Shown: positions 1-44,200 of the stretch, one piece after another
Layout: each line of letters opens with the position of its first letter
Position numbering within the stretch: position 1 is the stretch's first letter
Assembly: GCA_029204225.1 (NCBI GenBank)
Contig: CM055095.1
Coordinates: forward strand, 10,609,172 to 10,673,171
Direction: 5' to 3'
DNA: 64,000 nucleotides
Source of the DNA: Diphasiastrum complanatum
Taxonomy: Eukaryota > Streptophyta > Lycopodiopsida > Lycopodiales > Lycopodiaceae
Program-made: the position numbers and the translations under genes
The notes under the pieces: model-generated
Told to the model about the DNA's origin: nothing
Databases searched by the model: none
The model's input: only the letters and a program-made list of their open reading frames with translations

Positions 1-244
1 ACCACATAGAGCGAGCATGAGTTAAGAGCTATCTCTAAGATCTATTTTCATAGACTTCAGTAGGTTTGTTACATAGACTATACTAGGGTAACCTTAGGGT
101 AGGACAAAGCCTATCATTGAATGTCATCCCAAAAGTACAACACATAGGACCTAGGCATGACACAATACTCCATGTCTAGCTCATTTCAAATGCATACTCA
201 ACCTAACATTAAGCCAAATTTGTTTTTGAAGATCTTCTTGGACC

Positions 245-2570
245 TTGGACTTTTTCAAGATGGGAACAAAATGTCACTTGCATGTGAACTTAGAGAAGGA
301 GTATTCCACAACCAAAGCTGCATGGGGTGTTAATCTGAACTCATACGAAATGCATTGTTGGAGGTTAAAAGGAATTAAAAATATCGATCTATGGGTAAAA
401 AGTGATTTGTATCCACCTAATCCATTGACCGATATTTCTCCTCAATTTTGTGATGTACATAGTTTGTTAAAGTTCGTTGGCGATGGTGCCAACAGACTTC
501 TTGGCTACCGTCAAGTTATGGATTCTCGAAGAATCCAAGTTGAAATGCCAACGAATAGTGCAAACATTCATATTACATACATGAATGAGCAATTAAAATC
601 ATTGCAACAAACAAGTCAGACATTGGCTAAAGAGATAACAAATCTAAAATTAGAGCTCACTAGATCTGTCACAAAGTTTGAAGAATTGCAATCTTCAAAC
701 ATTAGTCTTCAAAAGATATTATATGGATTTCAGTGAAAGCGTCGAGTCTCAATGGATGACCAATCAAAAGATAATGCTAAAAGGTGCAAATTAGATGTTT
801 TGACACCAGGTGGTGGTGCTAGTAAAAGACGCAAGAGATTGACGAAAGAATTTTTGAATAACATGGTCAGAGATCATTTCCAAAGCACCAAACGTATGAA
901 GCAATTCATGAAGGGTAAAGATTTGATGCAGATTGTGAAAAATGAAACGAGCGATTCATTTCGTTTAAAGATTGCAAGAAGACTTGCTACCAGGTTTCAA
1001 CTGAATCCAAATGTTAGAGAAATAGTTTATGTGTGTGATCAAGGCGGTGTGAGTCGAAAAGGATATAGAGCATTGAAAAAAATTATGAAAAAATTTGACC
1101 AAAACGGGTTGAAAGGACATAAAATATTACCTGCTTACAAATTGCTTCAAACTACAATGCAAGAATGCAATTCATTTATAGAAAATGAATTAGGTGAATT
1201 CTTCCATATTCAGGATACTTTTAAGACAACAAGCAAAAGGGATCTATTGTTCATTTTCATTATGATTAATACAACAATATATTTTGGATCTGGAAAAGGT
1301 CCAAGCAATGATGATACGACATTACAATGTCAAAAGAGATGGTGAGTTCGTTTCACAACAATTTCAATTATTATTTCTCTTTTTCGTAAGCAACAATTAT
1401 TGTATGTTATTTACAAGAATTTGGTATTGCAGATATTGGAGGCAAAGCTATATTTGTCATTAAGTTGGATGAAGCGGAGATCGTAAAAGGTCGCAAAATG
1501 TGTCACAATCACGTTGATGAACCAAGCATTGCAGGAGTCAACTAGAAGTGAGTCCAATAAATTCAGTGTGCAATCCGAAAATCATATATGGTGGATAGCT
1601 ACATTCGAAGTTCATAAAGAGACCAACGATGTGTTGAAGTGGGTATTTGAACGATGCAATATATCCAAGGTAGTACAAGCACAAAATGGAGGACAATTGC
1701 TAAGTGTTGATGGCCAAAATTTTACTGTGGAATGGCACTTAGCTGCCGATTTGAACACCCTAAAATGCATGTTTGTATGTCTGAAAGTGGCCGAAATAAA
1801 GGTGTGTTGCATTGCAACCAACGAGTTACACCAAGCAGGCAAAATCTAGACAAAGCATGGAGTCCCGTATTAGAGATTCCTCTCGAAAGAGTCCATTTTT
1901 GCACGATGCATGGTGTATTGTGGATATTGGTTGTGGAAAAACTCAAGACTTGCTGGCAAAAGTTTCCATGGGGGGCGCAAAAGCAAGGCATTTCTTGTCA
2001 AATCATACTGGATGAGAAAGTAGTCTTCAATGGGATTATTGGGAGAGAGTGTGTGAATGCACAACAAATATTGGCTCGGATCCGCGTATGGCTGCCACAC
2101 GTGCAAAAGTGTGGCAAGCATTTGATGCTTTGTCACTGACTATCAATAAAAAAGACTTGAGGGAGGAAGATTATGATAGATATCAGATGGAAGTAAAGGC
2201 ATTCACTCGATTGATGATTGATGCATGGGGAGAAACACACATCACTCATTATATGGTCAGTGTTTTGTCTTTATTTTTTTCTTTGTAAGTTCTATCCAAT
2301 TGAAATGTACTAATTAGATTCTTTTGCAAACAACACATTTTGTACGCTCATGGACCTTGGTTTTTAAAGACATATGATCATTGGCTATTTGGAATACCCA
2401 AGGGACGGAGAAGAGTCATTATAAGGCCAAGGCTACGTATTTTAAAAATTCAAGACATGGTGGAGGTAAAGGTCTTAGCAATGCCTTGGTAGAGATATTT
2501 CAGAGGTTTTATAGAGGAGTTTTGAGCAGACAAAACATCGAAGAAACACAGGCTTGAGGGTTGACTTCAA
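245..2570 (+). pseudogene. Transposase-like gene of element A (left copy), decayed
   Basis: Pieces in order: 245-736 (163 codons; holds LWVKSDLYPP and a coiled-coil-like end), then in the same frame after a stop 752-1345 (197 codons; basic patch KRRKRLTKE, then GVSRKGYRALKKIMKK). A likely intron follows at about 1345-1432 (gtgagt...ttgcag), then 1433-1850 with FVIKLDEAE, HIWWIATFEV and VEWHLAADLNTLKCMF. Downstream pieces in shifted frames carry VHFCTMHGV (about 1890-1917), HGPWFLKTY (about 2347-2375) and HGGGKGLSNALVEIFQRF (about 2456-2510). The E-W-H-x3-D-L-x2-LKCM core, a following Cys pair and the later His-Cys-His block recur in element B, so this is one family. It looks like an RNase H-type transposase, which is inference from layout and repetition. 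Frameshifts lie near 1775 and 2400. Confidence 0.68.
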
Positions 2571-2991
2571 TGATCTCTTCATCAAATTTAGCCAGAAGAG
2601 CCGCTTGGAAGTCATCCACAACTAATGCAAGGCATAGGGAATGGAGGATGTCTTGGGTTCGTGTAGGGAAGCGGTGGGTTCCTCGGCAAAGAACATCCAA
2701 TGAAGAGGATGGCATTTCATGAATAGTGCACAATGAACAAATAGAATCTATTGAGAATACTACATTGTTTTGAAGTATAGTGGTATAATTAATTTAATTA
2801 CTATAAATAGACTTTATTTGATACAATATTAAAATCATGTCTATTTTTGAAAAACTTTTCCTGATATAAGACCACTTTATCTCATTTTCAAGCACACATT
2901 TTTCTTGCTCTCTTGGCTTTCTTAGTTTCGATAAATGCTTTGCACTTAGGCTCGTACTAAAAGTCTTTCGTACTGTCTCATTACGTTCACG

Positions 2992-4463
2992 ATGCAGCCT
3001 TCGAAGACAAAGTTGGCAAATCTATTGGCCGACACAACATTTGCTGATGAAATAGATCGCATCTATGCTATGTTCACTACCAGAATAGATACCCTAGCAA
3101 CTCTACGTGCGAATAGTGATGATTTCAGATATGTAATTGAGTATATAGAAGAGAACTTGATGCCTTACTTGGTAAGAATGCCTGGCTATGATATTTCTTG
3201 GATTTTGTATAATCTGCTTACATATATATAGAAAGGAGATAGAGCTTTTGCTGCCCGACTCAACATGTTTGTTAGCCACCAGGGGAACGAGCACTTTTTG
3301 GAGTTAACGCGCGATCAACAAGTAAATTTTAATCTCAAAAGTGTAGGAAACAAGTTCTTGTCAGGTGAAATTACTGTGATTTTTTGTTGAATGAATTTCC
3401 TACAAATACCGTTGAAGAAAAACAGGATCCTAGCGTGAACGTTAGCAAAATGGAAGAGCAAGAAGCAGAAGAGGAATTAACACCCGTGAAGGAAGCAGAG
3501 CTTGCACGGCAGATGGCTTCAGTTGCATCAACATCTGCCCAACCTGAAGGACGTAGACGACTCCAATCACATGCTACGAATACGTGACCTTGCCCTAGTG
3601 ATAATTAATGGGCAAGAGTATTTGTTTTTGCATGACTTGCAGCATATCCTCAGCCTACGAGAGGATGAGATGTTGGCAGGATTAGTGAAATTGCAAAATG
3701 GCACGAACACCTTTGACCACTCAGTGCCAGACGATACATTTCGACAACTAATTGGAGATGACACAGATACTATTGAGCAAGCTCTGGCAAAATTTTTGTG
3801 TGAACTAAAGACTCTGCAACCACCGGAGTTTGAGCATAAACAATTTGGGAAATTACCGATTTCCACAACTGAGATGCCATACAAAGGCCATGGAATTGTG
3901 CTTGCAAAAAGTGAGAATGAGGATGAAGGATCTCATGCAAGTTCTTTGTCAACAAATACTCTTGTCCATGCTTATTCCCATTTCTGAATTTGTTCATTAT
4001 AATTATAACATTCTTATATAATGTATTGCAGTATGTGGTGGAGATTGACAGTTCTACAATGAGGAGCGGAGGTTCTTGTGAGGACCGAACAGAGCGAAGG
4101 CCAGATGCATCCCTGGCATACTACATTGGACAATTCCCTGACAACTACATCTTCTGTTTCAGCAATGAGTATAGTCCTAATGGGCCCACTGAGCTGGTCA
4201 AGTGCAAAGCATTATCAAAGCATCTTGCAGATGCTCCACTTCCACAAACTACACCAAAGGCCTACTGTGTACGAAGGAGTGCTATCTTGCAGGACTTTTG
4301 CCCGGGGTTTGAGTCCAGATTACTTCTGGCCTCAGCGGTTGGACCTTATGAGGAGCATGCTGATGCTGCTAAGTTAGCATCGGAGTTAATGAAGCCAACA
4401 ATAGGACTAGAAAATAGATCAGAGTCACTGCTCAAAGCACTGGCTAATGTAAGAGAATTTTAA
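2992..4463 (+). CDS. Unidentified multi-exon gene 2 of element A
   Basis: Not recognised. Probable exon 1 is 2992-3171 (starts MQPSKTKLANLLADTT; donor gtaaga). Exon 2 is about 3232-3362 (acceptor after tatatatag; KGDRAFAARLNMFVSHQ). Then come an acidic stretch (EEQEAEEELTPVKEAE, 3384-3587), an exon at about 3560-3950 (RIRDLALVIINGQEYLFLHD), and an exon from about 4032 (acceptor ttgcag) to 4450 containing SLAYYIGQFPD and PYEEHADAAKLASELMKP. The later exons are conserved in the right copy at 33400-34215, but its first half is deleted there. It lies downstream of the transposase on the same strand, so it may be a second transposon protein. Exon borders are by eye. Confidence 0.45.
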
Positions 4464-4589
4464 ATGAAAATGTGTATCTTTTGCAAAAAAATGTCTGTTG
4501 AAACTGCATGCGTTCAAAAATTTCATTCATTATTGTAGGTCATGAGGATTTCTACCAATCATCTAAATTAAGGGCATTAAAGTGCCATT

Positions 4590-4860
4590 TTGAACTTCAA
4601 ACGGCCCCCCTCCGCGCCCTTGCGTAATTTGCACGCAAGGGCGCGGATTGGGGCCATTTGACCTGGTCAAACTCCCTCTCTCCGCGCCCTTGCGTGATTT
4701 TTACGCAAGGGCGTGGAGAGGGGCCGTTTGACTTGGTCAAACAACATCTATCTGTGCCCTTGCATGCAGATTATGCAAGGGCGTGGAGTGGGGCTATTTG
4801 ACCAAGTCAAACGCCCTCCCTCCGTGCCCTTGCGTGCAAATCATCATTTGACCTACACTC
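4590..4860. repeat. Four 70-bp units, each with two palindromes, between convergent genes (left copy)
   Basis: A GC-rich palindrome (ccgcgcccttgcgt...acgcaagggcgcgg) begins at 4612, 4682 and 4752, with a half copy at 4822, an exact 70-bp period. A second palindrome of the form TTTGACYNRGTCAAA lies between them at about 4657, 4727 and 4797 (half at 4847). The array separates the 3' ends of gene 2 (+) and the H3 gene (-). As RNA the GC-rich units would form about 14-bp stems on either strand. A role as a two-way terminator or RNA-processing block is inference. TTGAC is also the core of WRKY-factor sites. Confidence 0.85.
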
Positions 4861-4998
4861 CGATAAAAAATTTAGAAAACCAAAAACATTCACAGAAAAC
4901 TGTATTTCATCATAAAATAAATTCACACAATAATTCAACAGAGTTTGATGACAAAAATGATTTGATATTATTATCTCCAAATTTGGAGTACATCGTTT

Positions 4999-6269
4999 TT
5001 AATTCCTCTCGCGTCTCAGCCTCTTTGCCAACAACATGTCCTTTGGAAGTATAGTAGCTCTCTTACAATGGACAACGCACAAAAATGAGTCTTCAAACAA
5101 ATTTGTTAGATACATTTCTGCCGCCTCTTGGATAGCCAATGCAGCCTCGTCCATAATTTTGAGCCCAAGGGCGAATTCGTCCATGATCTCCTTGATTGTC
5201 TGGACAAATGGAGCTCTCGGAATGAGAAATTCAGTGCATTTTTGGTATTTTCGAATCTCCTTATACCAATTTGGAATTCTGCTTTTCCTTCGGCGGCGTG
5301 GTTGCGGAGGCTACATCCTTTTGAGGACCTTGCCTTGCCAGGGTGGTGGTAGTGTGGCTACCCTTCTCCGTGTTGCCGGCTGGCTAGGTTCTACCTCATA
5401 TTGCATGGGAGGGTCCTGCGGGGGGTCCTGCGGCACCTCTGGTGCTGACTGATCTTGAGGCACCTGGGGAGCTTCCGGATGCGGCTGTGCTTGAGGGATG
5501 GTCTGCGGAAGGCGTCGAGGCTTCGAGCGACCTCTCTTTTGATGAACAGCTTTAGTTTTCGGCCGTGATGTGGGTGTGACATGCTGAGAATCCTCCCCAA
5601 TGGCTTCTGCATTTGGTGTCTGGTCTGAGCCGACGAGCAAGGACATAATGGGCCCCATTAGAGGCCCTTGCACATGTCCGAGTGATTGTGTCGAAGTGGA
5701 GTCCCCTGAAGCTGCTTCGACTTCTAACGAACGAACCGCAAAGCCATCAAGAGGCACCTATTCCTGAGGACCCTGATCGTCGAAGATCCCAAGGAAATCA
5801 TTGGGAATCAGCCTAGAAGCAGCTACCTCACTGTCCAGAAAAGCCTGAGTGGCGTCGCGCTGGCTCTGTGTTGGAGAGGGGCTTCCCAGCACTGACCTCA
5901 CACCAAAATCATGCTACTCATCCAGAGGTGTTTGTTGCTGCCCCTGCTCCTGCCCCAGCTCATCCATTGCCTCTTGCTGTTGCCCAAGCTCCTCCATTGC
6001 CTCTTGCTGTTGCCCAAGCTCCTCCATTGCCACCTGCTGCTGGCCCTTCACCTGCTCACAATCCATCGAAACTTGCCCAGGATCATCCATTGCTACTTGC
6101 TCAGCTCATCCTGAGTTTTGTCCATTTCCTCCGCCGCAGGTTCAATGCTGTTACTTCTGTTCCTACTCCTACTTCTACCTTTCCCATGCTTCTATTACTT
6201 CTAAAGCTACTTGGTGCAATAACGTTGTTCCCTTGGATTCCGCCTTGCTGTTTGTTTCGTACGTGCCAT
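4999..6269 (-). pseudogene. Histone H3 variant gene of element A (left copy), inactivated
   Basis: The start codon at 6269-6267 opens MARTKQTARRNPR, the canonical H3 tail ARTKQTAR with K4 kept, K9 changed to R and S10 to N. After an Arg/Ser stretch and a Gln-rich region with three near-identical 30-bp units (about 5961-6035, AMEELGQQQE), a Pro-rich linker leads to a full H3 fold ending at 4999: RKYQKCTEFLI (alphaN), PFVQTIKEIMDEFA (alpha1), EAAEMYLTNLFED (alpha2) and ATILPKDMLLAKRLRRERN (alpha3). Relative to the right copy it has a 1-bp deletion just after the tail and CAG-to-TAG stops before HDFGVRS, before VPLDGF and before PPQPRRRRK. It converges on gene 2. TATA-like CTATATAA (minus strand) lies at 6442-6435, about 170 bp upstream. 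Confidence 0.9.
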
Positions 6270-6434
6270 AAACTAGGTCGCCATGCGGATATAATAGAGT
6301 ACTAAAGTATAGGAATTGCAATAATGACACTATTTGAACTTGTGTGAGCATAGCAAGATGATAGCAACCTATGAAAAACAAAGGAAACTCTCTGACACTA
6401 AGAATGAAATGGCGAAATGGGGACCCACACACCC

Positions 6435-6442
6435 TTATATAG
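6435..6442 (-). promoter_or_regulatory. TATA box upstream of the H3 variant gene (left copy)
   Basis: CTATATAA on the minus strand, about 166 bp before the H3 start codon. The same box and surroundings are kept in the right copy at 31453-31460. Conservation of box and spacing supports a core promoter. Confidence 0.55.
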
Positions 6443-6899
6443 TGTGCCATTCCAATTAGTAGCAAGCATTCCAAAAAGATCTCTCGATTGTTCAAAAATA
6501 ATAAAGTACGAAATATATACACAATGAAATAATTCTACACATTCCCAAAACATGTTATCAACAATTTCCTATAGAAAATGTCTAGTCAAAACATTTACAT
6601 TGCAATTGCATACCAAATTAAGCCATAGCTAATGCCCTAACAAACATGGAAACGATAGAACCAAATCTTTGATGAAATCCCATCGGATAGATCAATGTTA
6701 TTAGTCAAAGCTAGCACATAAGAGCAACTCATAGTTCATGTATTTTTACGGTGACCGAATCTAAAAAAGATGCGCACTTTTGGTGGTTTTCCGCGCGTCT
6801 CCTGATCTGCAAAACCAGACACTACCATTTCAATATTAAAACTCATTTTATATATGTGTTCAACAACCATTTACAAAATTTAGAAGCACGTTTATTGTT

Positions 6900-7860
6900 T
6901 ACACTTACGGTTTGTCAGTTGATAGTGAACACAAAATTTGTGGGCACGTCAGCATATATTAAACCAACCATAGCCCGTACATCTTCCAGACTCCATTCAC
7001 CATTGACACAGACTTTCCGCACTTCATCATTTGGCATGTGGATGGGTAGTTCAAATTCTTGATGTCCCGTCTCTACATCCAAGCTATCCCATTGACCGTG
7101 AGCAAACTTGAACCGCCTATAAACGAAACTGAAGGAGCACGTTTGCGTGCATTGTGATATCTTATTGTCATCGTCTCATGACAAATATCACACCTTATTA
7201 AATCACCTTTGTGATCTACATTCCGTGAGTCCCAAGAAGTAGATACATTGTCCAACAATGAGGATTCCGTCGCTTTCCATACACATAATGTATTTGTTTT
7301 TCTAAATTGTATTGTTTTAAATATGGCAACAAATACAGCGACAGGCACACTGACACTAATGTAAACATGTTTGGATCCAAATGTTGGCTTCATATTCATT
7401 GTAATCTCTTTGACGAGTTGGAATTTTGTCAATTCGATGGCCAATTGTGAGAATCAATTGTAGGCTCAGAAAGAGGCAATAATTTGCCAGTCCCAAAGTT
7501 CTTCTTTGGAACTTCATACATGTGATCGTAAAAGTAAACACCCAGTCCTATGATCGTAGAAGACTTGAGCCCATCATATATTAGCACTCCATATTTTGCA
7601 TGTATTGCAAAGAACTTTCCTGTAAACGATTTTACATGCTGCCAGTCATAGCTATCTGAAGGAAAAACATCTGCACAAGAGGTAATAGAATGAAGCAACA
7701 ATAATTTACAAGTAAAATATCTTTGACATTCAAAGATGTAAGACTTACAATGCGAAAGTATTGTTGGACTATATGCACTTGGATAGGTCGATATGAAGGA
7801 CAAGCATCAACATGATGCGTAGCTCGACAGTGTGGGTAAAAACATATGGAAGTCTTCATA
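6900..7860 (-). pseudogene. Unidentified gene 4 of element A (left copy), multi-exon
   Basis: The minus strand has exon-like pieces: 7860-7750 (MKTSICFYPHCRATHHVDAC, Cys/His-rich), a likely intron at about 7750-7672 (gtaagt...tgtgcag), then about 7671-7430 (SYDWQHVKSFTGKFFAIHAK, GVYFYDHMYEVPKKNF), and 7444-7073 in another frame (KGDLIRCDICHETMTIRYHN). Only the ETMTIRYHNAR part and what follows (to about 6920) aligns with the right copy (30715-30980). The part before it differs, so the two copies have unlike 5' halves. Family not recognised. In the left copy the 3' portion is frameshifted relative to the right copy (open frame there: EFELPIHMPNDEVPKVCVNG). Confidence 0.4.
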
Positions 7861-19935: not shown

Positions 19936-22695
19936 AGTGCATGGAACGTTCCTCGTTGAAAATAGACGACTCTTGAGTTTTTTTTTTTTCTCTCTTTGGT
20001 ATTTTGCGAAAAAGTCAACTTAAAAAGCTGACACTGTCCTTAAATTTCTTGATCAAGTTCGATCACTTGATGGGCCATGTCAAGTGACAAGGACCAAAAT
20101 TGCAACATATGCATTGAACATGAGCTATCATAAGTGATAAACATCAATTTGAATCATTTGAATGCCCTAGACTCAAGATTCCTCTAATTTTAGAACTCCA
20201 TGAGCAATTTTGAGTGATAATATCTAACATCGAGCTACCTCGAGTGACATATAAAATCATAGCTATTTCATAGGAAGGGGTCAATTCCATCAATAAGAGA
20301 CTATACTCAAGCAATCTAAATGTGATAGACTTGATATTGGTTGAATTTGATCACTCAATTGTCGAGTGATAAGGACCAAAATCACATGTTGTGCATTAAA
20401 TTTGAGCTATGTTAGTTATATGTATGAAATTTGAGCTAGCTAATTGTCTTAATCTCATGATCCCTTGATTTCCTTACTCAACGAACCATCTTGAGTGCTA
20501 AAGGCCAGAATTTAGTGATCTCAAGTGGCATCAAAGTTGGGACATCTTGTGTGGTAGGGATTGATTCTATCGATAAGAGGCTGAAACTCGAACAATCTAG
20601 ATTTGTTGAACACGATATTGGTCAATTTTCATTGCTCAATGAGCCTTTTTTAGAGATGAGGACCAAAACATTGCTTTCTTGCTTGTAGGCATCAAAATCA
20701 AGTTATCTCAACAGATAGACATCAATTTGAGCTCTCAACAAATATGGACCAATTCCATCAATAACGAGTTGAACTTGAACAATCCGAGTGTCGTAATATT
20801 GAGATTGGTCAAGTTTGATTGCTTCATGAATTATGTTAAATTATAAAGACCAAATCGCATGCTAGGCATCATGTTTGAGATATTTTCAGTGATAGGCATG
20901 AAATTTGAGCTATTTGAAGCTCATAAATTTGACATTCCTCAGATTTCATCACTTTATGAACAACCTCATATAATCCATGCCAAATTATATCTTGGTTGAT
21001 TGACATCAAATTTGAGCAATCTGAATGTCCTAAAATTGAGATCGATGAGCTTAAATATTCTATGTCAAGTCATAGGGACGAAAATCAAGCTATCTTATGT
21101 GTAGACATAAAATTGAATCTACTTAAATGTCGTAAGCACAAGCTTACTCTAAGTTGATCAGTGAATTGGCAATCTCTAGTCATATATGAAGTGGTCATAA
21201 GCTCCTTGTGTATTAAACAAATTCTACTTGTTAAAGAATTTGCAAAATCATTACGTAATTTTTATTGAGGCCACATGGAGATGAGGCACCATGATTGTTA
21301 TCCATTTTTTGAGTTGCTTTAGTATAACACTTCAACCTTGCTACAATGCCCAATAGTACAAACTATATTTGTGATATCTTGATCTTCTACTTTTTAACTT
21401 GAGGGTGCAATTGATGCATATGAAAATGATTTTACCTTTCATCTTAATGTTCGACAAAATCTAGCCCTTAAAATACCTTCAAAATGATCTCTGATGTCCA
21501 GGACGCACTCCAAATGTCAACATTGTTGACGTCATATCTAAGGGAGTGTCCTCATTAACCCTCTACTCTTAATGGAGTCAATGGTGCCTTTTGAAAAGAA
21601 ACCAACCAGTTCTTTTTGTTTCTGTTAAAAAAATAAAAGGACCAGGGATTTGTAACCTTTTGGATCAAGGCAGGGGCTACAAATCGTTGGAAACCTTGAT
21701 TTCATTGTTTAGTTCTAGAAATTGTGAACATGCATTCAATGAACATGTTAATTGCTATAGGGACCGGGGCTAATGAAAACAAAGTGTCGATGTCCATGTT
21801 ATAAAGATGGTGAACAAAAATACTAGCCTATCACCAATTAATGTTAATGAGGATAGGAAATATGAGTGGGGTTATAATATCTAAGGAAACTATTTTGTAA
21901 TTTAAAATGTAAATTGAAAATTAAATAATTTCCTATATAAACTTGAGACACATTCATTTTGTAACTCTAAAAAAAAAAATTAATTTAGAAATGGTAGAAA
22001 TGTATCTAGGAAATAAGGTTTTTCCCTAGTTGCAATTGATGCACATGCATTTTTTAACTAGGAAAACTAGTGTGAAACCAAGAAATTCCACATTTTTCCT
22101 ATATAGGAACTGATCAATAGTTCCTTGTGAGAGTTGATTCAGAGGTTAGTCAACCTACCGTCAACCGGCTACTGAGATGCAACTTAGAGTTCAAACTAAT
22201 AATAATTCTCCCGTTTATTTCAAAGTTCTGATCTGATGATTTTTGCTAAGAGTGCTTGGAATATCATAGCTAATGGTTTAGAAACGTTAATACGATCAAT
22301 ACCATGCCAATATTTGAAGTAATTTTGAAGAAGTAAAGAATAAATGATGAAGCGGCCAGACTCTCCATCACATGAGCGTAATCTGCACTAGACGGCTATG
22401 CTTCTGGCATTTTGCTACATGAAAGAACATCAACCCAATTATCCCTCTTTGATTGTTTGTATGTGAAAATTGAATGCACGTTGGCAAAAGAGAAGCAAAG
22501 AAACTGCCCTTTGATGACTAACATAGTGAAGTCTGACGCATCACCATATTTTCGATAATATCCAATTCCGCTTTTAACAAATAAGCCAAAACTCTGAAAC
22601 ATGATTAAGCATCATTATAGCGCAGTTGCTGAAGACGAAGAAATGCAGAGAGCGAGAGAGATGTGCTCACTAGAGAGGGAATAAACATGCATATC
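19936..22695 (+). repeat. Giant inverted repeat, right arm
   Basis: Inverse match to 10625-13302 around a 6.6-kb spacer. It starts right after the element B transposase remnant (ttaggaagtgcatggaacg) and ends within captured-gene sequence, which continues to 23162 only on this side. It has the same degenerate tandem units as the other arm; no coding frame is supported. Confidence 0.85.
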
Positions 22696-23162
22696 GATTC
22701 CAGAACCATGCATAACCGAGTGATAAATTCCAGAAGTTAAGACGTTATTGTTCCAAAATGAAAAATTTACAAGCTTCAGCACGAACGAAGAAAATAAAAA
22801 GCGGAAGAACAAAAACTAAGATATTGGAAGACAAAATAATTATACATTTTTGAAGGGCAATGAAATTTTGAACTGGTTCTACCAACATTGTAGATCTATT
22901 ATCTATCGGAGCTCCATTTTCCATCTTTGTTCAGCAGCCAAACACGTATTCCATTGACACCTACACACGATTGTATTTTCAAGAAATAGTGCTCCATACA
23001 ACCTGCGTTTTATAATTATACAGCTCAAAAATAGCACTAGAAACGTTAAAAGCAAAAGAAGAACTTTATATCTGAATCAGCTTTGAAGTTTCTCACCAGC
23101 AAAGTCAATTGTTGCATCTCAGGCAAAAAGGTTTTCAATCGTACGGGATACTTGACCTTTAT
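22380..23162 (-). pseudogene. Captured fragment of unidentified plant gene X, copy 1
   Basis: Aligned with 53060-53860. The minus strand reads VIKVKYPVRLKTFLPEMQQL and LLVRNFKADS before a donor (ggtataaag). A following exon-like piece (about 22965-22905, acceptor gtgtgtag) reads VNGIRVWLLNKDGKWSSDR then stop. It is cut at 23162 by a copia LTR. Protein family not recognised. Confidence 0.55.
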
Positions 23163-28885: not shown

Positions 28886-30022
28886 ATTTGCTTGTCTTTC
28901 TAACCAAAAATCAGACGGATATTTTGGATTATAATGATTTAATATTCTACAAATGGTATCAGAGCTTGTGTTTCAGGTTATGAAGGAAGTATTCACAATC
29001 TATAATGATTTGGAGACGATATCAATGCTAGAGCATGCTAGATTGGATTCTACACCAAAATCCACTTTCTTGCATATGTTGATTGGATCTTTTGTAGATC
29101 AAACCTCAAAATTGGTTTACATTCTTGATCAATTCCGATTGCACACATTACTTGTTGGATTTGGCCAATTTTAGAGCATTGGAATTGCCTAAGTGGTGGC
29201 TACAAGATCACATATCAAGTTTTAGGCAATTGCTTATAGATTTTGAAATAATCAATTTTTTGTGATTTTGTCAAAACCGTAATTCTGACTGGATATCTAG
29301 ATTGTCAGGTTACTGAACTTTATTTGGGCGTGTTTCAATCTTAGGAAGTCGCAAGATTCATTAGATTGAGGATACATCATAGGTTGATCAAGATTTCACT
29401 ATTCTATGTGTTGATTTGGGAGTGTGAGTAAATTGCTAAGTAAAGGCCTCAAAGTTGAGATTGATGGAGATGCTTGTATGATCAAAAGGAAGGATATCTT
29501 GATTGCAAAAGGTAAAAGACAAGGGAAGTTGTTAAAACTAGATGCTTTTGTTATTTTAACCAAGTTGGATGTGTTGCAAGAGAGCAAATACCTATTCAAG
29601 AGGTTTGGCATAAAAGGATGGGACACCTCAACTTCAAGAGGTTGAAGGTAATGACTAGGAATCAAGTTCTGATTGGAGGTAATCGATAGGAATCAACTTG
29701 TGATTGGTCTTGCGCTTTGTCAAAATCACATAGACTACCTTATATAGATCTACATCTAGATCTACAAAGCCTTTTCAAGTTGTACATTCGGATATTCATG
29801 GAAATACTACAATAAGCAATAGTGGAGCTAAGATCTATGTCACTTTCATGGATGCATTTAGTATATTTTTTTAAATCTATCTACTAAAGAGCAAGGATGA
29901 AGTGTATGAAGTATTTGTTAAGTTCAAGAATGCAAGGGAGAACCAATTTTCTACAAGGATCAAGTGCTTAAGGAATGACAATGGTGGTGAGTACGTATCT
30001 ACCAAGTTCAAGGCTTTTTGTG
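28885..30022 (+). mobile_element. Copia fossil A, 5' part (LTR end, PBS, integrase region)
   Basis: The last 68 bp of an LTR (28885-28952) is followed by the primer-binding site tggtatcagagc at 28953. Then come degenerate gag/pol remnants, integrase motifs (VVHSDIHGNTT, CLRNDNGGEYVSTKFKAFC) at 29770-30022, and the left end of element A. The rest of this element resumes at 36180. The LTR end matches 37670-37737. Broken, with many breaks; old, and older than the element A insertion. Confidence 0.8.
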
Positions 30023-30076
30023 CATTAAGGCCCTTTTTGGACTCAAAAAGGGCCTCTTCACTAATCATGATTAGTG
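30023..30076 (+). repeat. Left terminal inverted repeat of element A, itself a hairpin, plus 18-bp palindrome
   Basis: AGGCCCTTTTTG-gactC-AAAAAGGGCCT at 30028-30055 folds on itself. It is followed by the perfect 18-bp palindrome CACTAATCATGATTAGTG at 30059-30076. It pairs with the right terminus at 36146-36179. Confidence 0.85.
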
Positions 30077-30430
30077 TTAATGACAACACATGTGCCAATA
30101 AAAGAATGACAATTGAGCAGCAATGGCCCATATGATATGGAAAATTGCATGGTGTAGACTAAATCAAGTGTGGGACCACTAAGCACACCTTCACCATTAA
30201 CCCTACATTTACTCTACATGGGAGGCTAACTACACCTATCACATAGCTATTAACTAGACCCAACATACCTGCACCTAATGGCTAGTTTATCTACTCATTC
30301 GAAATATTCAACCTCTCTCTCTCTCTAAACGACCTCCCACTCTTCTCATTCTCCATATTGACATAGCAATCTTTCCACTATATTATATACTCTCTAACTC
30401 AAGACTAGACACATTGTCTTTTCATAGATC

Positions 30431-30980
30431 ATGACTTCTAGTCAACCAAGAAGAACAAAGATTCAATTAAACTCCGTTGTTGCACCAATCAAATACTCCA
30501 ATGACCATTGGGTGCCTACGACATTTTTGACTCTTGATTGGGTATATATGCAACCCTCTGGTAAAGGAATTTATAGGGTTGCAAAGAGAAAATGTGACAA
30601 CAAAGAGCACCATTGGAGAGGAAGAATTCACGAATTCAAAGTCGATTGCAACGGAGATTACCTAGCCAGAGTGCAACACGTCTACATGCGTAGAGATGTT
30701 TTTTTTTATTTGCCGTGAGACAATGACAATAAGATATCACAATGCACGCCAAACGTGCTCCTTCAGTTTTGTTTATAGGCGGTTCAAGTTTGCTCACGGT
30801 CAATGGGATAGCTTTGATATAGAGACAGGACATCAAGAATTTGAACTACCCATCCACATGCCAAATGATGAAGTGCCAAAAGTCTGCGTTAATGGTGAAT
30901 GGAGTCTGGAAGATGTACAAGCTAGGGTTGGTTTAATATATGTTGATGTGCCCACAAATTTTGTGTTCACTATCAACTGA
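30431..30980 (+). pseudogene. Unidentified gene 4 of element A (right copy)
   Basis: The first frame, 30431-30718, begins MTSSQPRRTKIQLNS and holds LDWVYMQPSGKG, WRGRIHEFKVDCNGDYLARV and HVYMRRDVFF. This W-x-GRI-x-E-F ... V-x-H-x-Y-x-R-x-DV layout faintly recalls a BAH chromatin-reader domain (weak inference). A run of nine T (30699-30707) lies where the frame changes; the next frame continues ETMTIRYHNARQTCSFSF and FAHGQWDSFDIETGHQEFEL to a stop at 30980. The second half is shared with the left copy (6920-7150), the first half is not. Same strand as the H3 gene, 650 bp upstream of it. Confidence 0.45.
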
Positions 30981-31452
30981 CAAACCGTAAGTGTAAACAA
31001 TAAACGTGCTTCTAAATTTTGTAAATGGTTGTTGAACACATATATAAAATGAGTTTTAATATTGAAATGGTAGTGTCTGGTTTTGCAGATCAGGAGACGC
31101 GCGGAAAACCACCAAAAGTGCGCATCTTTTTTAGATTCGGTCATCGTAAAAATACATGAACTATGAGTTGCTCTTATGTACTACCTTTAACTAATAACAT
31201 TGATCTATCCGATGAGATTTCATCAAAGATTTGGTTCTATCATTTCCATGTTTGTTAGGGCATTAGCTATGGTTTAATTTGGTATGCAATTGCAATGTAA
31301 ATGTTTTGACTAGACATTTTCTATAGGAAATTGTTGATAACATGTTTTGGAAATGTGTAGAATTATTTCATTGTGTATATATTTCTTACTTTACTATTTT
31401 TGAACAATCGAGAGATCTTTTTGGAATGCTTGCTACTAATTGGAATGGCACA

Positions 31453-31460
31453 CTATATAA
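31453..31460 (+). promoter_or_regulatory. TATA box upstream of the H3 variant gene (right copy)
   Basis: CTATATAA, about 166 bp before the H3 start codon at 31626, with the same spacing and flanks as in the left copy. Confidence 0.55.
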
Positions 31461-31625
31461 GGGTGTGTGGGTCCCCATTTCGCCATTTCATTCTTAGTGT
31501 CAGAGAGTTTCCTTTGTTTTTAATAGGTTGCTATGATCTTGCTATGCTCACACAAGTTCAAATAGTGTCGTTATTGCAATTCCTATACTTTAGTACTCTA
31601 TTATATCCACATGGCGTCCTAGTTT

Positions 31626-32863
31626 ATGGCACATACGAAACAAACAGCAAGGCGGAATCCAAGGCAAACAACGTTATTGCACCAAGCAGCTTTAGAAGTA
31701 ATAGAAGCACGGGAAAGGTGCTCGAGGAGTAGGAGTAGGAGCAGAAGTAGCAACATTGAACCTGCGGGATGAGATGAGCAGGCAACAATGGATGATCCTG
31801 GGCAAGTTCCGATGGATTGTGAGCAGGTGCAGGGGCAGCAACAGGTGGCAATGGAGAGGCTTCGGGCAGGATGAGTTGGGGCAATGGAGAGGCAATGGAT
31901 GAGTTGGGGCAGGAGCAGGGGCAACAACAAACACCTCTGGATGAGCAGCATTATTTTGGTGTGAGGTCGGTGCTGGGAAGCCCCTCTCCAACACAGAGCC
32001 AGTGTGACGCCACTCAGGCTTTTCTAGACAACGAGGTAGCTGCTTTTGGGCTGATTCCCAATGATTTCCTTGGGATCTTCAACGATCAGTGTCCTCAGGA
32101 ACAGGTGCCTCTTGATGGCTTTGCGGTTCGTCCGTTAGAAGTCGAAGCAGCTTCACGGGACTCCACTCCGACACAATCACTCAGACATGTGCAAGGGCCT
32201 GTAATGGGGCCCATGATGTCCTTGCTCGTCGGCTTGGACCAGACACCAAATGCAGAAGCCATTGGGGAGGCTTCTCAACATGTCACACCCGCATCACGGC
32301 CGAAAACTAAAGTTGTTCATCGAAAGAGAGGTCGCTCGAAGCCTCGACGCCTTCCGCAGACCATCCCTCAAGCACAGTTGCATCCGGAAGCTCCCCAGGT
32401 GCCTCAAGATCAGTCAGCACCAGAGGTGCCGCGGGACCCCCCGCAGGACCCTCCCATGCAAGATGAGGTAGAACCTAACCAGCCGGCAGCACAAAGAAGG
32501 GTAGCCACACCGCCACCACCTTGGCAAGGCAAGGTCCTCAGAAGGATGCAGCCTCCGCAACCACGCCGCCGAAGGAAGAGCATAATTCCAAACTGGTATA
32601 AGGAGGTTCGAAAATACCAAAAATCCACAGAATTTCTCATTCTGAGAGCTCCATTTGTCCAAACTATCAAGGAGATCATGGATGAATTCGCCCTTGGGCT
32701 CAGAATTACGGGCGAGGTTGCATTGGCTATCCAAGAGGCGGTAGAAATGTATCTGACAAATTTGTTTGAAGACTCATTTTTGTGCGTTGTCCATTGTAAG
32801 AGAGTTACTATACTTCCAAAGGACATGTTGTTGGCAAAGAGGCTAAGACGCGAGAGGAATTAA
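31626..32863 (+). CDS. Histone H3 variant with long inserted linker, cargo of element A (right copy)
   Basis: The tail frame 31626-31772 reads MAHTKQTARRNPRQ..., i.e. the H3 tail ARTKQTAR with R2 changed to H, then an RSRSRSRS stretch and a stop. The main frame, 31871-32863 (330 codons), is open. It has a Gln-rich start, a Pro-rich linker with basic patches (HRKRGRSKPRR; QPRRRRKS), then a whole H3 fold at about residues 233-330: NWYKEVRKYQKSTEFLI, PFVQTIKEIMDEFALGLRI, EAVEMYLTNLFEDSFLC, VVHCKRVTILPKDMLLAKRL. Residues at the H3-H3 four-helix interface (Cys, His, Arg and Asp of LC-x2-H-x2-R...PKD) are kept. Loop 1 has canonical length, so it is not CENH3-like. Tail and fold lie in different frames, from a frameshift or a missed intron. 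Full product about 410 residues against 136 for H3. Confidence 0.92.
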
Positions 32864-33004
32864 AAACGATGTACTCCAAATTTTGAGATAATAATATCAA
32901 ATCATTTTTGTCATCAGACTCTGTTGAATTATTGTGTGAATTCATTTTATGATGAAATATAATTTTCTGTGAATGTTTTTGGTTTTCTAAATTTTTTATC
33001 GGAG

Positions 33005-33262
33005 TGTAGGTCAAATGATGATTTGCACGCAAGGGCACAGAGGGAGGGCGTTTGACTTGGTCAAACAGCCCCACTCCACGCCCTTGCATAATCTGCATGC
33101 AAGGGTAGAGATAGAGGTTGTTTGACCAAGTCAAACGGCCCCTCTCCGTGCCCTTGCGTAAAAATCATGCAAGGGCACGGAGAGAGGGAGTTTGACTGGG
33201 TCAAATGGCCCCAATCCACGCCCTTGCGTGCAAATTATGCAAGGGCGTGGAGGGGGGCCATT
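33005..33262. repeat. Palindrome array between convergent genes (right copy)
   Basis: Inverse counterpart of 4590-4860 with the same 70-bp units. Some stem positions differ from the left copy on both sides of the pair: unit 2 has T-A where the left copy has C-G, and unit 1 has A-T where the left has G-C. The stems thus remain paired despite divergence. All these changes sit at CpG, so paired deamination is an alternative to selection. Confidence 0.85.
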
Positions 33263-33399
33263 TGAAGCTCAAAATGGCACTTTAATGCCCTTAAATTTAG
33301 ATGATTGGTAGAAATTCTCATGACCTACCATAATGAATGAAATTTTTGAATGCATGCAGTTTAAGTAGACATATTTTTGCAAAAAAATCACATTTTCAT

Positions 33400-34230
33400 T
33401 TAAAATTCTTTTACATTAGCCAGTGCTTCGAGCAGTGACTCTGATCTATTTTCTAGTCCTACTGTTGGCTTCATTAACTCCGATGCTAACTTAGCAGCGT
33501 CAGCATGCTCCTCATAAGGTCCAACTGCTAAGGCCAGAAGTAATCTGGACTCAAACCCCAGGCAGAAGTCCTGCAAGATAGCACTCCTTCGTACATAGTA
33601 GGCCTTTGGTGTAGTTTGTGGAAGTGGAGCATCTGCAAGATGCTTTGATAATGCTTTGCACTTGACCAGCTCAGTGGGCCCATCAGGACTATACTCATTG
33701 CTGAAACAGAAGATGTACTTGTCAGGGAATTGTCCAATGTAGTATGCCAGAGATGCATCTGGCCTTCGCTCTATTCGGTCCTCACAAGAACCTCCGCTCC
33801 TCATTGCAAAACTGTCAATCTCCACCACATACTGCAATACATTATATAAGAATGTTATAATTACAATGAACAAATTCAGAAATGGGAATAAGCATGGATG
33901 AGAGTATTTGTTGACAAAGAACTTGCATGAGATCCTTCATCCTCATTCTGACTTTTTGCAAGCACAATTCCATGGCCTCTGTATGGCATCTCAGTTGTGG
34001 AAATCGGTAATTTCCCAAATTGTTTATGCTCAAACTCCGGTGGTTGCAGAGTCTTCAGTTCACACAAAATTTTTGCCAGAGCTTGCTCAGTAGTATCTGC
34101 GTCATCTCCAATTAGTTATCGAAATGTATCGTCTGGCACTGAGTGGTCAAAGGTGTTGGTGCCATTTTGCAATTTCACTAATCCTGCCAACATCTCATCC
34201 TCTCGTAAGCCGAGGATATGTTGCAAGTCA
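33400..34230 (-). pseudogene. Unidentified gene 2 of element A (right copy), 5' half deleted
   Basis: The last two exons are well kept: 33873-33400 (SLAYYIGQFPDKYIFCFSNE ... LASELMKPTVGLENR) and about 34215-33890 (ELKTLQPPEFEHKQFGKLPI). Upstream of about 34230 the sequence jumps to the transposase gene. The part matching 1830-3630 of the left copy is gone. Function unknown. Confidence 0.5.
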
Positions 34231-35824
34231 TGTGGAACTCATTGGTTGCAATGCAACACACCTTTATTTCGGCCACTTTCAGACATACAAACATGCATTT
34301 TAGGGTGTTCAAATCGGCAGCTAAGTGCCATTCCATAGTAAAATTTTGGCCATCAACACTTAGCAATTGTCCTCCATTTTGTGCTTGTATTACCTTGGAT
34401 ATATTGCATCGTTCAAATACCCACTTCAACACATCGTTGGTCTCTTTATGAACTTCGAATGCAGCTATCCACCACATATGATTTTCGGATTGCACACTAA
34501 ATTTATTGGACTCACTTCTAGTTGACTCCTGCAATGCTTGGTTCATCAACGTGATTGTGACACATTTTGCGACCTTTTACGATCTCCGCTTCATCCAACT
34601 TAATGACAAATATAGCTTTGCCTCCAATATCTGCGATACCAAATTCTTGTAAATAACATACAAAAATTGTTGCTTACGAAAAAGAGAAAAATAATAATTG
34701 AAATTGTTGTGAAACGAACTCACCATCTCTTTTGACATTGTAATGTCGTATCATCATTGCTTGGGCCTTTTCCAGATCCAAAAATATATTGTTGTATTAA
34801 TTATAATGAAAACGAACAATAGAACCCTTTTACTTGCTGGATATCTTAAAAGTATCCTGAATATGGAAGAATTCACCTAATTCATTTTCTATAAATGAAT
34901 TGCATTCTTGCTTTGTAGTTTGAAGCAATTTGTAAGTAGGTAATATTTTATGTCGTTTCAACTCGTTTTGGTCAGATTTTTTCATAAATTTTTTCAATGC
35001 TCTATATCCTTTTCGACTCACACGGCCTTGATCACACGATAAACTATTTCTCTAACATTTGGATTTGGTTGAAACCTGGTAGCAAGTCTTCTTGCAATCT
35101 TGAAACAAAATGAATCACTCATTTCATTTTTCACAATCTGCATCAAATCTTTACCCTTCATGAATTGCTTCATATGTTTGGTGCTTTGGAAATGATCTTT
35201 GACCATGTTATTCAAAAATTCTTTCGTCAATCTCTTGCGTCTTTTACTAGCACCACCACCTGGTGTCAAAACATCTAGTTTGCACCTTTTAGCATTATCT
35301 TTTGATTGGTCATCCGTTGAGACTCGACGCTTTCACTAAAATCCATATAATATCTTTTGAAGACTAATGTTTGAAGATTGCAATTCTTCAAACTTTGTGA
35401 CAGATCTAGTGAGCTCTAATTTTAGATTTGTTATCTCTTTAGCCAATGTCTGATTTGTTTGTTGCAATGATTTTAATTGCTCATTCATGTATGTAATATG
35501 AATGTTTGCACTATTCGTTGGCATTTCAGCTTGGATTCTTCGAGAATCCATAACTTGACGGTAGCCAAGAAGTCCGTTGGCACCATTGCCAACGAACTTT
35601 AACAAACTATGTACATCACAAAATTGAGGAGAAATATTGGTCAATGGATTAGGTGGATACAAATCACTTTTTACCCATAGATCGATATTTTTAATTCCTT
35701 TTAACCTCCAACAATGCATTTCGTATGAGTTCAGATTAACACCCCATGCAGCTTTGGTTGTGGAATACTCCTTCTCTAAGTTCACATGCAAGTGACATTT
35801 TGTTCCCATCTTGAAAAAGTCCAA
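34230..35824 (-). pseudogene. Transposase-like gene of element A (right copy), 3' part deleted
   Basis: The same pieces as 245-1830: 35824-35336 (162 codons), 35269-34830 (TPGGGASKRRKRLTKEFLNN; SRKGYRALKKFMKK) and 34549-34230 (HMWWIAAFEVHKETNDVLKW; MEWHLAADLNTLKCMF). It ends at the 1.8-kb deletion, so the His-Cys-His and HGPWFLKTY blocks seen in the left copy are lost. The stop between the first two pieces is also present here, so it may be an ancestral gene border or unrecognised intron rather than random damage. Confidence 0.65.
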
Positions 35825-36145
35825 GGTCCAAGAAGATCTTCAAAAACGAATTTGGCTTAATGTTAGGTTGAAGTGTGCATTTGAAATGAGCTAGACATGG
35901 AGTATTATGTCATGCCTAGGTCGTATCTGTTGTACTTTTGGGATGACATTCAATGATAGGCTTTGTCCTACTCTAAGGTTACCCTAGTATAGTTTATGTA
36001 ACAAACCTACTAAAGTCTATGAAAATAGATCTTAGAGATAGCTCTTAACTCATGCTCGCTCTATGTGGTAACCCATGGTAAAGGTGCCACGTAGGATGGA
36101 TTAGCATTACACTAATTATGATTAAGAAACTTGTTAAGGCAAGGA

Positions 36146-36179
36146 AGAGGCCCTTTTGAGTTCAAAAAGGGCCCTAATG
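36146..36179 (-). repeat. Right terminal inverted repeat of element A
   Basis: GAGGCCCTTTTGAG followed by TTCAAAAAGGGCCCTAATG; hairpin GGCCCTTTT...AAAAAGGGCC at 36149-36173. It matches the left terminus with one substitution and one indel over the first 30 bp. Confidence 0.85.
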
Positions 36180-41208: not shown

Positions 41209-44200
41209 TGTGAAAAATACAGATCCTAAGTGGATCTAAACTCCAAGATCATTGGCTTGAATGCTTGCACTCCAAACTACATAAGCTAGGAATTGGCAAC
41301 ACATTCTATGCTACCTAGAATGCAAAGAACTTGATCAAAAAGCATTTATCACAAATGGAAACTTCCATAAACATCAAGTGCGGCCCAAAATAGCATTATA
41401 CAGTCCATAATACATCAGCCTACCACTTTTGGAAAGCACCTAAGATCATACACACAAAGCTTGAACTCAATCACTACACAATGCCAACAATGGAAGGAGA
41501 ACCCAATAGAAAAATCTCTCATTAAGCAAATGAATACAATGGATCTGCTCCAACCTGTTTCTCCACGGCCTACCTGCTATATATAGCTGAGAGAGATGAC
41601 TCTCTCTCCTCTCTCTAGACCCTCCTTACCTAAAATATGCCCTATATAGGTAAAATTGGCATATATGTCCAAAATACATGAAAATGGACTCATTTCGAAG
41701 GTCTTGAAGTTTGACACTTCTTCATACTGAAAAAATACACTTACTAAAAATATCTAGACCTGTTTCACATGTGTGAAAAGTCAGATCCTAAACTATGTGC
41801 CATTTTTAGCAATTTTGGCCTAAAACTAGACAAGGAAATGTTGACAATTTTCACACTCCCTCTTCAACTTAACTTGCTAGTTTTACAACACTACTTTGTT
41901 CCAACTTAAGAATGATCTCCATCATCAGAATAGATCTCTTCTCAAGGATCCTAATATGTACAAAATAGGACACAACATAATTGATATAGATAATAGTGTC
42001 CATATAGGATGCTTCACTATTTCTTACATCAATTTTACATAGAATCATAAAAATGGTACATGTAAAAGAACATAGAATCTCAATTAATGAATTCCTCCAT
42101 GTATCCATCTCTGGTTTCTCTGTAAAATAGCAGCAAACAAGTTGTAAATGAAAGTGATCAACAAGTGTTTGCATGCCTCCTCCACATTTCACTATACATA
42201 TAGTGAATGCAACATGTATCTCCATGAATGAACTTCCATCACCACCTTGCCTTTGTAGATCTTCAATCCATGAAAGCCTTTGAGTGAATGAATGCCAAAA
42301 AGATGTGTTCCCTACTCCATTTGAATGACCAAAACCTGAACTTGAAATACTTGAAGTACCTCCACAAGATTTGCACACAACGCTTGATCCTACAATGTCA
42401 ACAAGTTGCCAATTTGCCAACACTAGAATACTAGATCTTGAACTTTGTTCAAAAGAAAACATATTGACCACTTCAATACCTTTCAAGGTCTGAATGAATT
42501 CATGTACTTGATCATACAAACCAGCAATGATAACTATTCCATCTCCAAGATCCAAAGGATGCAAAACTATGGAACTAGTTTTATTGAAATTTGACAATTT
42601 CAACACATTGACATAACAATGTTCATACATGAGATTAGGCAAGTGAGGTAGAGTAAGAAGACACTTCCTTGCAGCTCCAAAGACCTTACTTGAACCTTCA
42701 AGAACCTGTAAAAACAGATCCAAAATGCCTTGACCATTTGTCTCTTCTTTGATGCTTTTCACTAGCTTCGAATTGCCACTTGTCTCTTGGTGTTGATGAA
42801 GCAATCCAAGATCAACCTCTTGATCTTCCAATAAGACATCAAAGATCTTGCATATGTGAACATCTTCAGATCTGAAACTCTGAAGATACTCCCTCTCAAA
42901 CACATGATTAAGATCCCACAAGATCTCATCAATGCTCAAATTTGACCCTTCACTATAGTTAGTGAAAACAATGCCACCATCATAAACCAAAAGATAGATT
43001 TCTACACTTCTATCCAACATGAAGTAGAGTAGATGAAGTTGAGTATCAAACCTAATAAAACCAGCCCATTTGAGCTCAAACCAAACCTCAACGAGATCTT
43101 CCTTGCCTTGAAGAAATTTCCACTTGAGTTGCTCCATGTAGTCTTCTTCAACCAACCTTTTGCCATCTTGACCATGAATGAACAATCCACCACAATCATA
43201 GAATGCTTTGAGTTGATGAAGAGATGTTAGATCCATGCTTTGGATCTTCCCAAGAACCACTCTTCCATTGCCCTTTCCTTCACAAGACTCCCTCTTAATG
43301 CTAGCACCACAAAAGTTAGAAACCTCCCTCTTGATAGTTGCACCATAAGAAGTAGAAGACTCTTGAATATTAGAAGCCAAGAAAAGAATCCTTAGTACCT
43401 TCAACATAAGAGTGATTGAAGTACTCTCTCTTTTCAAACATGAACTTCTACTCAATGATTTAGGTAATGAGTCATATGATAATGATTCTTCCTCACTATC
43501 GTTCATAAAAACATCATTCAAAGTACATCCTACTTTGAACACTTCACATACTTCTCTTCCTTTTGACTTGTGATCTCCCTCACCAAGTCTCATGATAGAA
43601 ACCTTTGATCTACTCTTTTTATGAAGAAATGTGACACCACTTGTTGCACAAATGACTTTATCACAAAAAGATGTAAAAGAACCATTTCCTTCAAGCATGC
43701 TCAAAGCACCATCATCTTTTCCCACATGATTACATACATCAATATGAAAAGAATTAGAAGAACAACCATCTTCTTGCAAAGAATGACACTTAGCATCTCC
43801 ATCTTTTTCCATATGAACAAACAAGTCATTAGCAACAATCACTTCCAAAGAAGAATCTTCATCAACTCCATTGATGAAGTTAGCTCCTTCCTTACCTTTT
43901 CCATTTTTGCACTTGCCATCTAGCACCATTGAAGAACCACCAAGCCTTGGAAGTCCATGAGTAGAAGAGTACAAACATGATGCTAATTTAGCTCCACATG
44001 ACTCCATATGACTAGTAGGTAACACTAGTGCATCTTCAAGATCCAATGGATCCAAAAAATTGACCATAGATTCACCAAAGCTTTCCAAGTTAGCACAACA
44101 ATTATCATCTCCAAGAAGTACATTAGATCTCAACCTAGATCTAGCATTTTGTTTCTTATGGCATTCATTTGCAAAATGTCCTTTTATCCCACAATAAAAG

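Follow-up and report, generated by a model that had tools for sequence, protein, structure and literature searches.

Histone H3-like genes aboard DNA transposons are known from fungi. In Pyrenophora tritici-repentis they reside in hAT transposons, and these H3-like genes (H3L) are described as having insertions in the tail and transcripts, as matching in full neither H3 nor CenH3, and as occurring in copies which are nearly identical and recent (PMC3538342). In Pseudocercospora and its relatives, hAT transposons with 8-base target duplications carry H3 copies that stem from a captured host transcript, and the extra copies were inactivated by repeat-induced point mutation (RIP) (PMC6710886). 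In addition, chromatin enzymes are borne by other transposons, namely TET/JBP in fungi and SET methyltransferases in oomycetes as cited there (PMC12730594), and VANC proteins bind tandem repeats in the noncoding parts of VANDAL transposons (PMC10398659), which are of the MuDR type (PMC12730594). Among the open-access papers listed in searches for such a case, none with a plant transposon carrying H3 was seen, and the word "histone" is absent from the main text of a recent review on gene capture by plant transposons (PMC13317346). This paper discusses a transposon with an H3-like gene in the plant Diphasiastrum complanatum (Lycopodiaceae), starting from a stretch of 64,000 nucleotides, called the window (GenBank assembly GCA_029204225.1, contig CM055095.1, positions 10,609,172 to 10,673,171), which holds two copies of the transposon, element A. 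An initial annotation of the window, made from the letters without database searches, proposed that both copies carry an H3 variant and knew of no plant transposon with such cargo; we saw no plant case among the papers listed either, but H3-like genes in fungal hAT transposons had already been published (PMC3538342, PMC6710886).

The H3 gene is an old, selected component of this transposon, standing at a fixed place and in a fixed orientation. It is regarded as such, and not as a recent capture from the host, because of the pattern of divergence between two subfamilies of the element, A and B, and because of its linkage to the transposase gene. The two window copies, which are 94-97% identical, hold the gene at the same place and in the same orientation, each with a tail and a fold as proposed at the outset, but it is intact in neither of them: the tail frame of copy 2 meets a stop after position 31769, and the linker of copy 1 is interrupted by stops. 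The assignment to the H3 fold is borne out by Pfam PF00125, which matches residues 214-326 of the open reading frame 31871-32860 of copy 2 (E 3.9e-25), and the genome matches described below show that the resemblance is not due to chance.

All genome-wide counts refer to one genome, that of D. complanatum (1.74 Gb). With the fold of copy 2 as the query (84 residues), the best 150 of 5321 candidates were scored, all with E <= 5.4e-29, and they split into subfamily A (about 79-100% identical) and subfamily B (65-73%). With a B fold as the query, the best 150 of 6179 candidates were scored, 111 of which had no internal stop in a count by eye. Added to the 150 places of the B query, 55 A-type places chosen by hand from the copy 2 matches bring the total to at least 205 fold places, some of which may be duplicate contigs of the assembly. 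Absence of the gene from all other copies, which the initial annotation had named as the sign of a chance capture, is therefore not what is seen; many elements of this genome have an H3 gene beside the same transposase and CATTA-GGGCCC ends.

Intact H3 genes consist of one exon of 394-420 codons, with frames open from tail to fold in L020, L029, L030 and L032, and a spliced tail-to-fold gene is ruled out because these copies are open without an intron. The order within the intact gene is MARTKQTAR (MAWTKQTAR in L029), a short variable stretch, an arginine/serine (RS)-rich stretch, a Gln/Pro-rich linker and the fold; the linker between tail and fold is about 240 residues long and contains short conserved blocks, for example GPMMSLLVG and GK.LRRMQPP. 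PF00125 is also found in intact copies (L030, E 6.7e-29; L020, E 6.1e-24), the best 60 PDB matches of the B fold are H3 entries or histone-named, and no PDB entry matched the B tail and linker at E <= 0.01. The fold retains LFEDSFLC..H.KRVTILPKD..LA.RLR.ERN, and in its last part most H3 residues are kept (LFED..LC..H.KRVTI.PKD..LA.R.R.ER). Predicted structures scored low (mean predicted local distance difference test, pLDDT, 34.5 for a transposase piece and 47.0 for the H3 protein).

Tails and folds were compared in 38 places (window copies 1 and 2, L009-L032, L054-L062, L064, L065 and L070), which gave 38 folds, 6 of them with an internal stop, and 31 tails; all 38 have a fold by construction, because the places were chosen for matching it, and no tail was found in L014, L018, L019, L021, L023, L025 and L056. 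L001-L008 are left out as repeats of places in this count. From the first residue on, 28 of the 31 tails can be aligned, 14 of A and 14 of B. K4 is retained in 14/14 A and 13/14 B tails and so is R8 (14/14 and 13/14), and R8 is followed by R, Q, D or G, so that K9 is replaced in 28/28. The canonical tail ARTKQTARKS is thus not matched, since ARTKQTAR is mostly kept, K9 is gone and the long linker follows. What had been read from two copies, K4 kept and K9 replaced, holds across the aligned tails (K4 in 27/28, lysine at position 9 in 0/28). A rearranged copy, L056 (C17:8897226-8898546), has on its reverse strand (162-1319) a transposase start fused in frame to the H3 fold, and this frame is open for 386 codons within the fetched stretch.

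A complete B element, L054, lies at C2:61995383-62004219 with both ends present. Its genes are arranged in the order left gene (+), H3 gene (+, with one TAG), 71-base repeats, gene 3 (-) and putative transposase (-, with a frameshift), and the A elements have the same order. The transposase core of L054 was used as a query and 145 of 10433 candidates were scored: 72 of the 145 have a listed H3 fold no more than 6 kb away, on the opposite strand in 71/72 and at a distance of 2.8-3.7 kb in 65/72, where four shifted controls gave 1, 0, 0 and 0. Seen from the other side, a transposase is present within 6 kb, among the matches listed, at 69/150 H3 places of the B query and 3/55 A-type places, the transposase matches listed being mostly B copies. 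No relevant Pfam match was obtained for the left gene, gene 3 or the transposase.

The selection on the H3 gene was estimated from majority codons of the two subfamilies, as amino-acid-changing (pN) and silent (pS) differences per site. The fold (22 A vs 4 B copies) gives pN 0.186 and pS 0.916, the latter saturated, with 25/15/66 differences at the three codon positions of 99 codons; the tail (16 A vs 4 B) gives pN 0.251 and pS 0.921, with 12/8/35 differences of 45. In the first nine codons (MARTKQTAR) there are 5 silent codon changes and 9/9 residues are identical. Amino-acid changes are therefore far rarer than silent ones, in agreement with what the initial annotation had expected of dN/dS for a genuine component. 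Fold copies compared with their own majority have ratios of 0.27 (A) and 0.39 (B); single copies thus also decay, as expected for a transposon.

The other genes were compared between the B copy L054 and A copies, with the six longest comparisons at most for each piece, and the ranges given are those of the longest comparisons listed. They are pN 0.09-0.28 and pS 0.50-0.68 for the left gene, 0.12-0.26 and 0.45-0.60 for the transposase core (L026 apart), 0.10-0.24 and 0.48-0.58 for the first and third transposase pieces, 0.21-0.31 and 0.58-0.81 for gene 3, 0.19-0.22 and 0.85-0.92 for the H3 fold, and 0.37-0.42 and 0.78-0.88 for tail plus linker, from which pN the linker is seen to be much looser than the fold. 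At silent sites the two subfamilies differ more in the H3 gene than they do in the remaining element genes, and fourfold sites are changed at 16/21 in the H3 fold vs 31/68 in the transposase core (Fisher p 0.023). Outside CpG context the fold has 9/12 fourfold sites changed, and the guanine + cytosine content at third positions is nearly equal in A (0.51) and B folds (0.53). The H3 module may be faster-mutating, or it may have been swapped between lineages. Judged by these comparisons, the H3 gene is kept by purifying selection through the split of the A and B subfamilies and, given this long-term preservation, the element probably uses it.

As to the kind of transposon, the CMCT clade comprises EnSpm/CACTA, Mirage, Chapaev, Transib, Plavaka, ESTA and Lanisha, together with RAG1, and its target duplications are 2-5 bases long (PMC12730594). 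The element transposase has the layout D-95-D-20-CIYC, then CTMH, then H(4)H-20-E, with CIYC 20 residues past the second D and HIFYAH 20 residues before the E, in the next exon; we assigned the catalytic acidic residues ourselves, and the exons are joined before H(4)H at a putative junction. The spacings in RAG1 are about 108, 19 and 20, close to those of the element transposase. Both marks of the clade are found, namely C(2)C and H(3-4)H between the second D and the last E, across the putative junction, and 5'-CA...TG-3' ends (CATTA...TAATG). However, the transposase has no relevant Pfam match and no PDB match at E <= 10, in searches that did not extend to EnSpm or Transib collections, and a target-site duplication is absent from 9 of 10 end pairs compared, two of which sit in one larger repeat; the tenth has AAT/AAT, taken as chance. 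The flanks of the complete L054 and of copy 2 have no target-site duplication either. In addition, two empty sites of short derivatives with the same ends were recovered. At the first, the joined flanks match the best 40 of 502 candidates, and 8/8 fetched cross the junction gap-free; at the second, they match the best 40 of 102 candidates, 33 of which span all 60 bases at equal length, and, as read from the matches, one is short by a base and six are shorter yet cross the junction.

Because no target duplication is seen, the element is not assigned to the CMCT clade, though in build it looks like a member. The same absence speaks against PIF/Harbinger with its TTA/TAA duplication and against CACTA with a 3-base duplication, and hAT identity is not seen in the Pfam scans, which gave no hAT domain, nor in the flanks, which lack an 8-base target duplication. 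Spy transposons of the PHIS superfamily move by cut-and-paste without target duplication and prefer AAATTT (PMC4482050); a junction between AAA and TTT occurs here at 0/10 insertion points and the flanks are varied. That an element of RAG1/CACTA-type layout should insert seamlessly is a further matter which specialists of transposases would wish to check.

The ends are frequent in the genome: a pattern of 34 letters with up to 3 mismatches gave 979 + 964 matches and the reversed control 0 + 0. Among the matches listed, about 100, there are about a dozen facing pairs 0.4-1.2 kb apart, which are taken for short non-autonomous derivatives, and two at 8.1 and 8.7 kb. Some single copies deserve mention. 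A small insertion whose own ends begin with CATTA (CATTAGAGGAGTTTTGAGCTCC) lies inside L016 (6372-6409) and L021 (4929-4966) and is also present in L080; it is perhaps another short element family. In L026, oriented minus strand 1444-959, there is a related transposase piece (GVGDFNVEWHLTGDLKTLKCMYNVSHGATSKHPCLYCM), about 40% identical (pN 0.39, pS 0.68), perhaps of a second family of the same kind. In L030 and L031, both of B, a near-identical stretch of a Ty3-type retrotransposon adjoins the element downstream of gene 3, and this common stretch indicates a shared duplication or a stretch that moved with the element.

Tandem repeats sit in noncoding DNA between the element genes, and their palindromes are conserved in A and B. 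The repeat palindrome has 11 matches in the window vs 0.06 expected, all inside the two element copies, and 4 matches in L054, whose repeats are at 3772-3925. The 70-base repeats (33024-33246; L054 3772-3925) also hold inverted TTGAC[CT] motifs, which resemble plant W-boxes, and host WRKY factors might bind them.

That the element H3 would mark or loosen chromatin at the copies, or let them escape silencing, was already suggested by the initial annotation and is plausible. More definitely, but tentatively and at a little less than an even chance, we propose that the element-made H3 variant without K9 counters the silencing of element copies. The variant would pair with host H4 and be placed on, or act at, the element's own DNA, for which the palindromic 70-base repeats are a possible address. 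H4 pairing and entry into nucleosomes are plausible because the last part of the fold keeps most H3 residues. In the predicted protein ARTKQTAR with K4 is kept but position 9 is not a lysine, and the methyl mark that K9 bears in silent chromatin could therefore not be placed on it. Element copies would thereby stay transcribable, a histone doing the job of VANC in Arabidopsis VANDAL transposons, and VANC is not known to be a histone. If this is true, a parasite supplies the very protein that silencing marks, by means of a selected core histone gene, and a testable question arises, that is, whether a replaced histone, not a changed mark, can protect mobile DNA. A wider version is doubtful: the lineage may build its own chromatin, with a K9-less H3, possibly CENH3-derived, that is deposited at the 70-base repeats and allows the copies to evade heterochromatin, and may form an undescribed duplication-free CACTA/Transib-like branch.

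Several observations weigh against this proposal. Many element copies have internal deletions. Within the tail, R2 is retained in 10/14 A and 7/14 B tails (17/28 in total) and A7 in 20/28; the loss of R2 resembles decay at CpG sites (for example CGG to TGG). Compared with their own majority, tail copies are looser than fold copies, at ratios of 0.55 (A) and 0.86 (B), and in B an in-frame ATG four codons upstream (MSEEMARTKQ) might bury the tail. CpG-type changes make up 82/440 in A folds and suggest methylated copies, so escape from silencing would be incomplete at best. Moreover, 73/145 scored transposase matches have no H3 nearby among the matches listed, and the H3 gene may therefore be dispensable in cis. 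Two such places were fetched: L079 has the H3 tail and the fold end with about 0.7 kb between them missing, which makes it a deletion derivative, and L080, in 1.6 kb fetched, has only the 3' flank of the H3 gene, preceded by a small insertion and by unrelated sequence.

Against the anti-silencing role proposed for the element H3, other explanations have to be weighed. The H3-derived protein could be an accessory factor of transposition: through its fold, paired with H4 or self-paired, it would hold or bend the ends or repeats, its tail would recruit host factors, and the chromatin state would not be its target. This is possible but unlikely; the fixed position beside the transposase gene, the palindromic repeats conserved in A and B and the short conserved linker blocks agree with it, but the exact ARTKQTAR start is hard to account for if the fold alone matters, and short elements with the terminal inverted repeats (TIRs), too small for the gene, have moved, which supply in trans would also permit. 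Rather improbable is a mimic of the tail, in which the ARTKQTAR end binds host readers, writers or erasers of H3K4, recruiting or titrating them, and the fold is an anchor: five silent changes separate the A and B majorities in the first nine codons without altering a residue, but among copies the fold is more conserved than the tail, and in B an in-frame ATG lies upstream.

Descent from CENH3, with a gene that steers the element or its chromatin to centromeric or kinetochore-like chromatin, seems to us quite improbable. The element folds form one clade on a long branch (support 100/98 and 100/99 in two trees), and this clade joins plant CENH3 with a weak support of 54/90, in a tree with five reference sequences and long branches. 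Residues like LIPxAPF are common to the element folds and the CENH3 sequences used. On the other hand, CENH3 has extra residues in loop 1, and the element folds have there the canonical length without an insertion, vs insertions in the CENH3 sequences used; moreover, the approximately unbiased (AU) test gave p 0.054 for grouping the element folds with three canonical H3 rows. For grouping them with host H3 alone it gave p 0.025. A recent capture of host H3, the near-identity named at the outset as grounds for a chance capture, is rejected, because the host canonical H3 (13 places) is 99-100% identical to canonical H3 and the element folds only 44-57%. A viral origin is unsupported, as one scan of viral contigs, for which the B fold was the query, gave 26 pattern matches, none confirmed. 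Other divergent H3-like sequences of the genome are L066 (C7:61150800-61151300), whose tail reads MARTKQIARPKS and whose fold start contains a TAG, perhaps a CENH3-like pseudogene, a second place scoring the same at C7:61421937, and another divergent H3-like frame in L063 (C8:18045900-18047200).

The last explanation, a captured host H3 carried as a passenger without function, is very improbable and disfavoured by the selection results, since A-B silent changes far exceed amino-acid changes and both subfamilies share one gene order, although functionless capture and amplification of H3 have been published for fungal hAT (PMC6710886) and every second transposase match scored lacks an H3 nearby among the matches listed.

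The features of the two window copies are collected in the table. The limits of copy 2 are those at which homology with other copies begins and ends, at or a few bases from CATTA and TAATG, and its ends are also recovered by the pattern search. Compared with longer copies it is short of 0.6 kb at about 30706 and of 1.2-1.9 kb at about 34232. The right end of copy 1 is outside the window and its left end was not recognised; its part 1832-3630 is absent from copy 2.

Table. Features of the two element A copies, in positions of the window
Feature	Position	Strand	Remark
Element A copy 2 (internally deleted)	30022..36179	+ (strand set by H3 gene)	TIR-bounded, CATTA...TAATG
Left TIR of copy 2	30022..30058	+	
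Right TIR of copy 2	36144..36179	-	
Left gene remains (MTSSQPRRTK...), copy 2	30431..30977	+	Unassigned product; cut by the 0.6 kb deletion at about 30706
H3-like tail MAHTKQTARRNPR and RS-rich stretch, copy 2	31626..31763	+	
Gln/Pro-rich linker and histone fold, copy 2	31823..32860	+	Open; other frame than the tail
Histone H3 fold, copy 2	32564..32860	+	99 codons; Pfam PF00125 E 3.9e-25
70-base tandem repeat, copy 2	33024..33246	+	3.2 copies, with GTTTGACYWGGTCAAAC palindromes (subfamily B has palindromes too)
Gene 3 remains, copy 2	33400..34232	-	Unassigned product
Putative transposase gene remains, first part, copy 2	34232..35824	-	Later exons deleted in copy 2
Element A copy 1, inverted	1..7187	-	
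Histone H3 fold, copy 1	5002..5298	-	Open
H3-like tail, copy 1	6138..6269	-	Broken by frameshift and stops

Elsewhere in the window, a Copia-type retrotransposon at 41209-46768 has a 1026-residue frame with gag domains between direct repeats of 647 bases (41209-41855 and 46122-46768), which are 99.5% identical, so that it looks young. A further repeat family is present at 10621-13294 vs 19933-22696, inverted and about 95% identical, with a third member at 52839-53852 (about 79-83%).

The element can be compared with the known systems as follows. Like Pyrenophora H3L, the plant gene has insertions in the H3 tail, its linker being about 240 residues; unlike the fungal hAT cases, the element has a CACTA/Transib-like transposase layout, no target duplication and two diverged subfamilies under purifying selection (PMC3538342, PMC6710886). 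With the CMCT clade it shares the CA...TG ends and the layout D-95-D-20-C(2)C ... H(4)H-20-E, and it differs in having neither target-site duplication nor a Pfam or PDB match (PMC12730594). With Spy it shares the absence of target-site duplication, but its flanks are varied in ten elements (PMC4482050). As in VANDAL transposons, an element-encoded factor is proposed to reverse silencing and tandem repeats lie in noncoding element DNA; the anti-silencing function has been shown for VANC, whereas for the element H3 it is only inferred (PMC10398659). Like the carriers of TET/JBP and SET enzymes, the element has a chromatin factor aboard, probably against silencing, but those enzymes change marks and the element H3 would replace the marked protein (PMC12730594). 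What is new relative to the fungal H3 cases is that the host is a plant, that the transposon is of another lineage, that the linker is long and that selection has lasted; taken together with those cases, the element suggests that DNA transposons have acquired H3 repeatedly.
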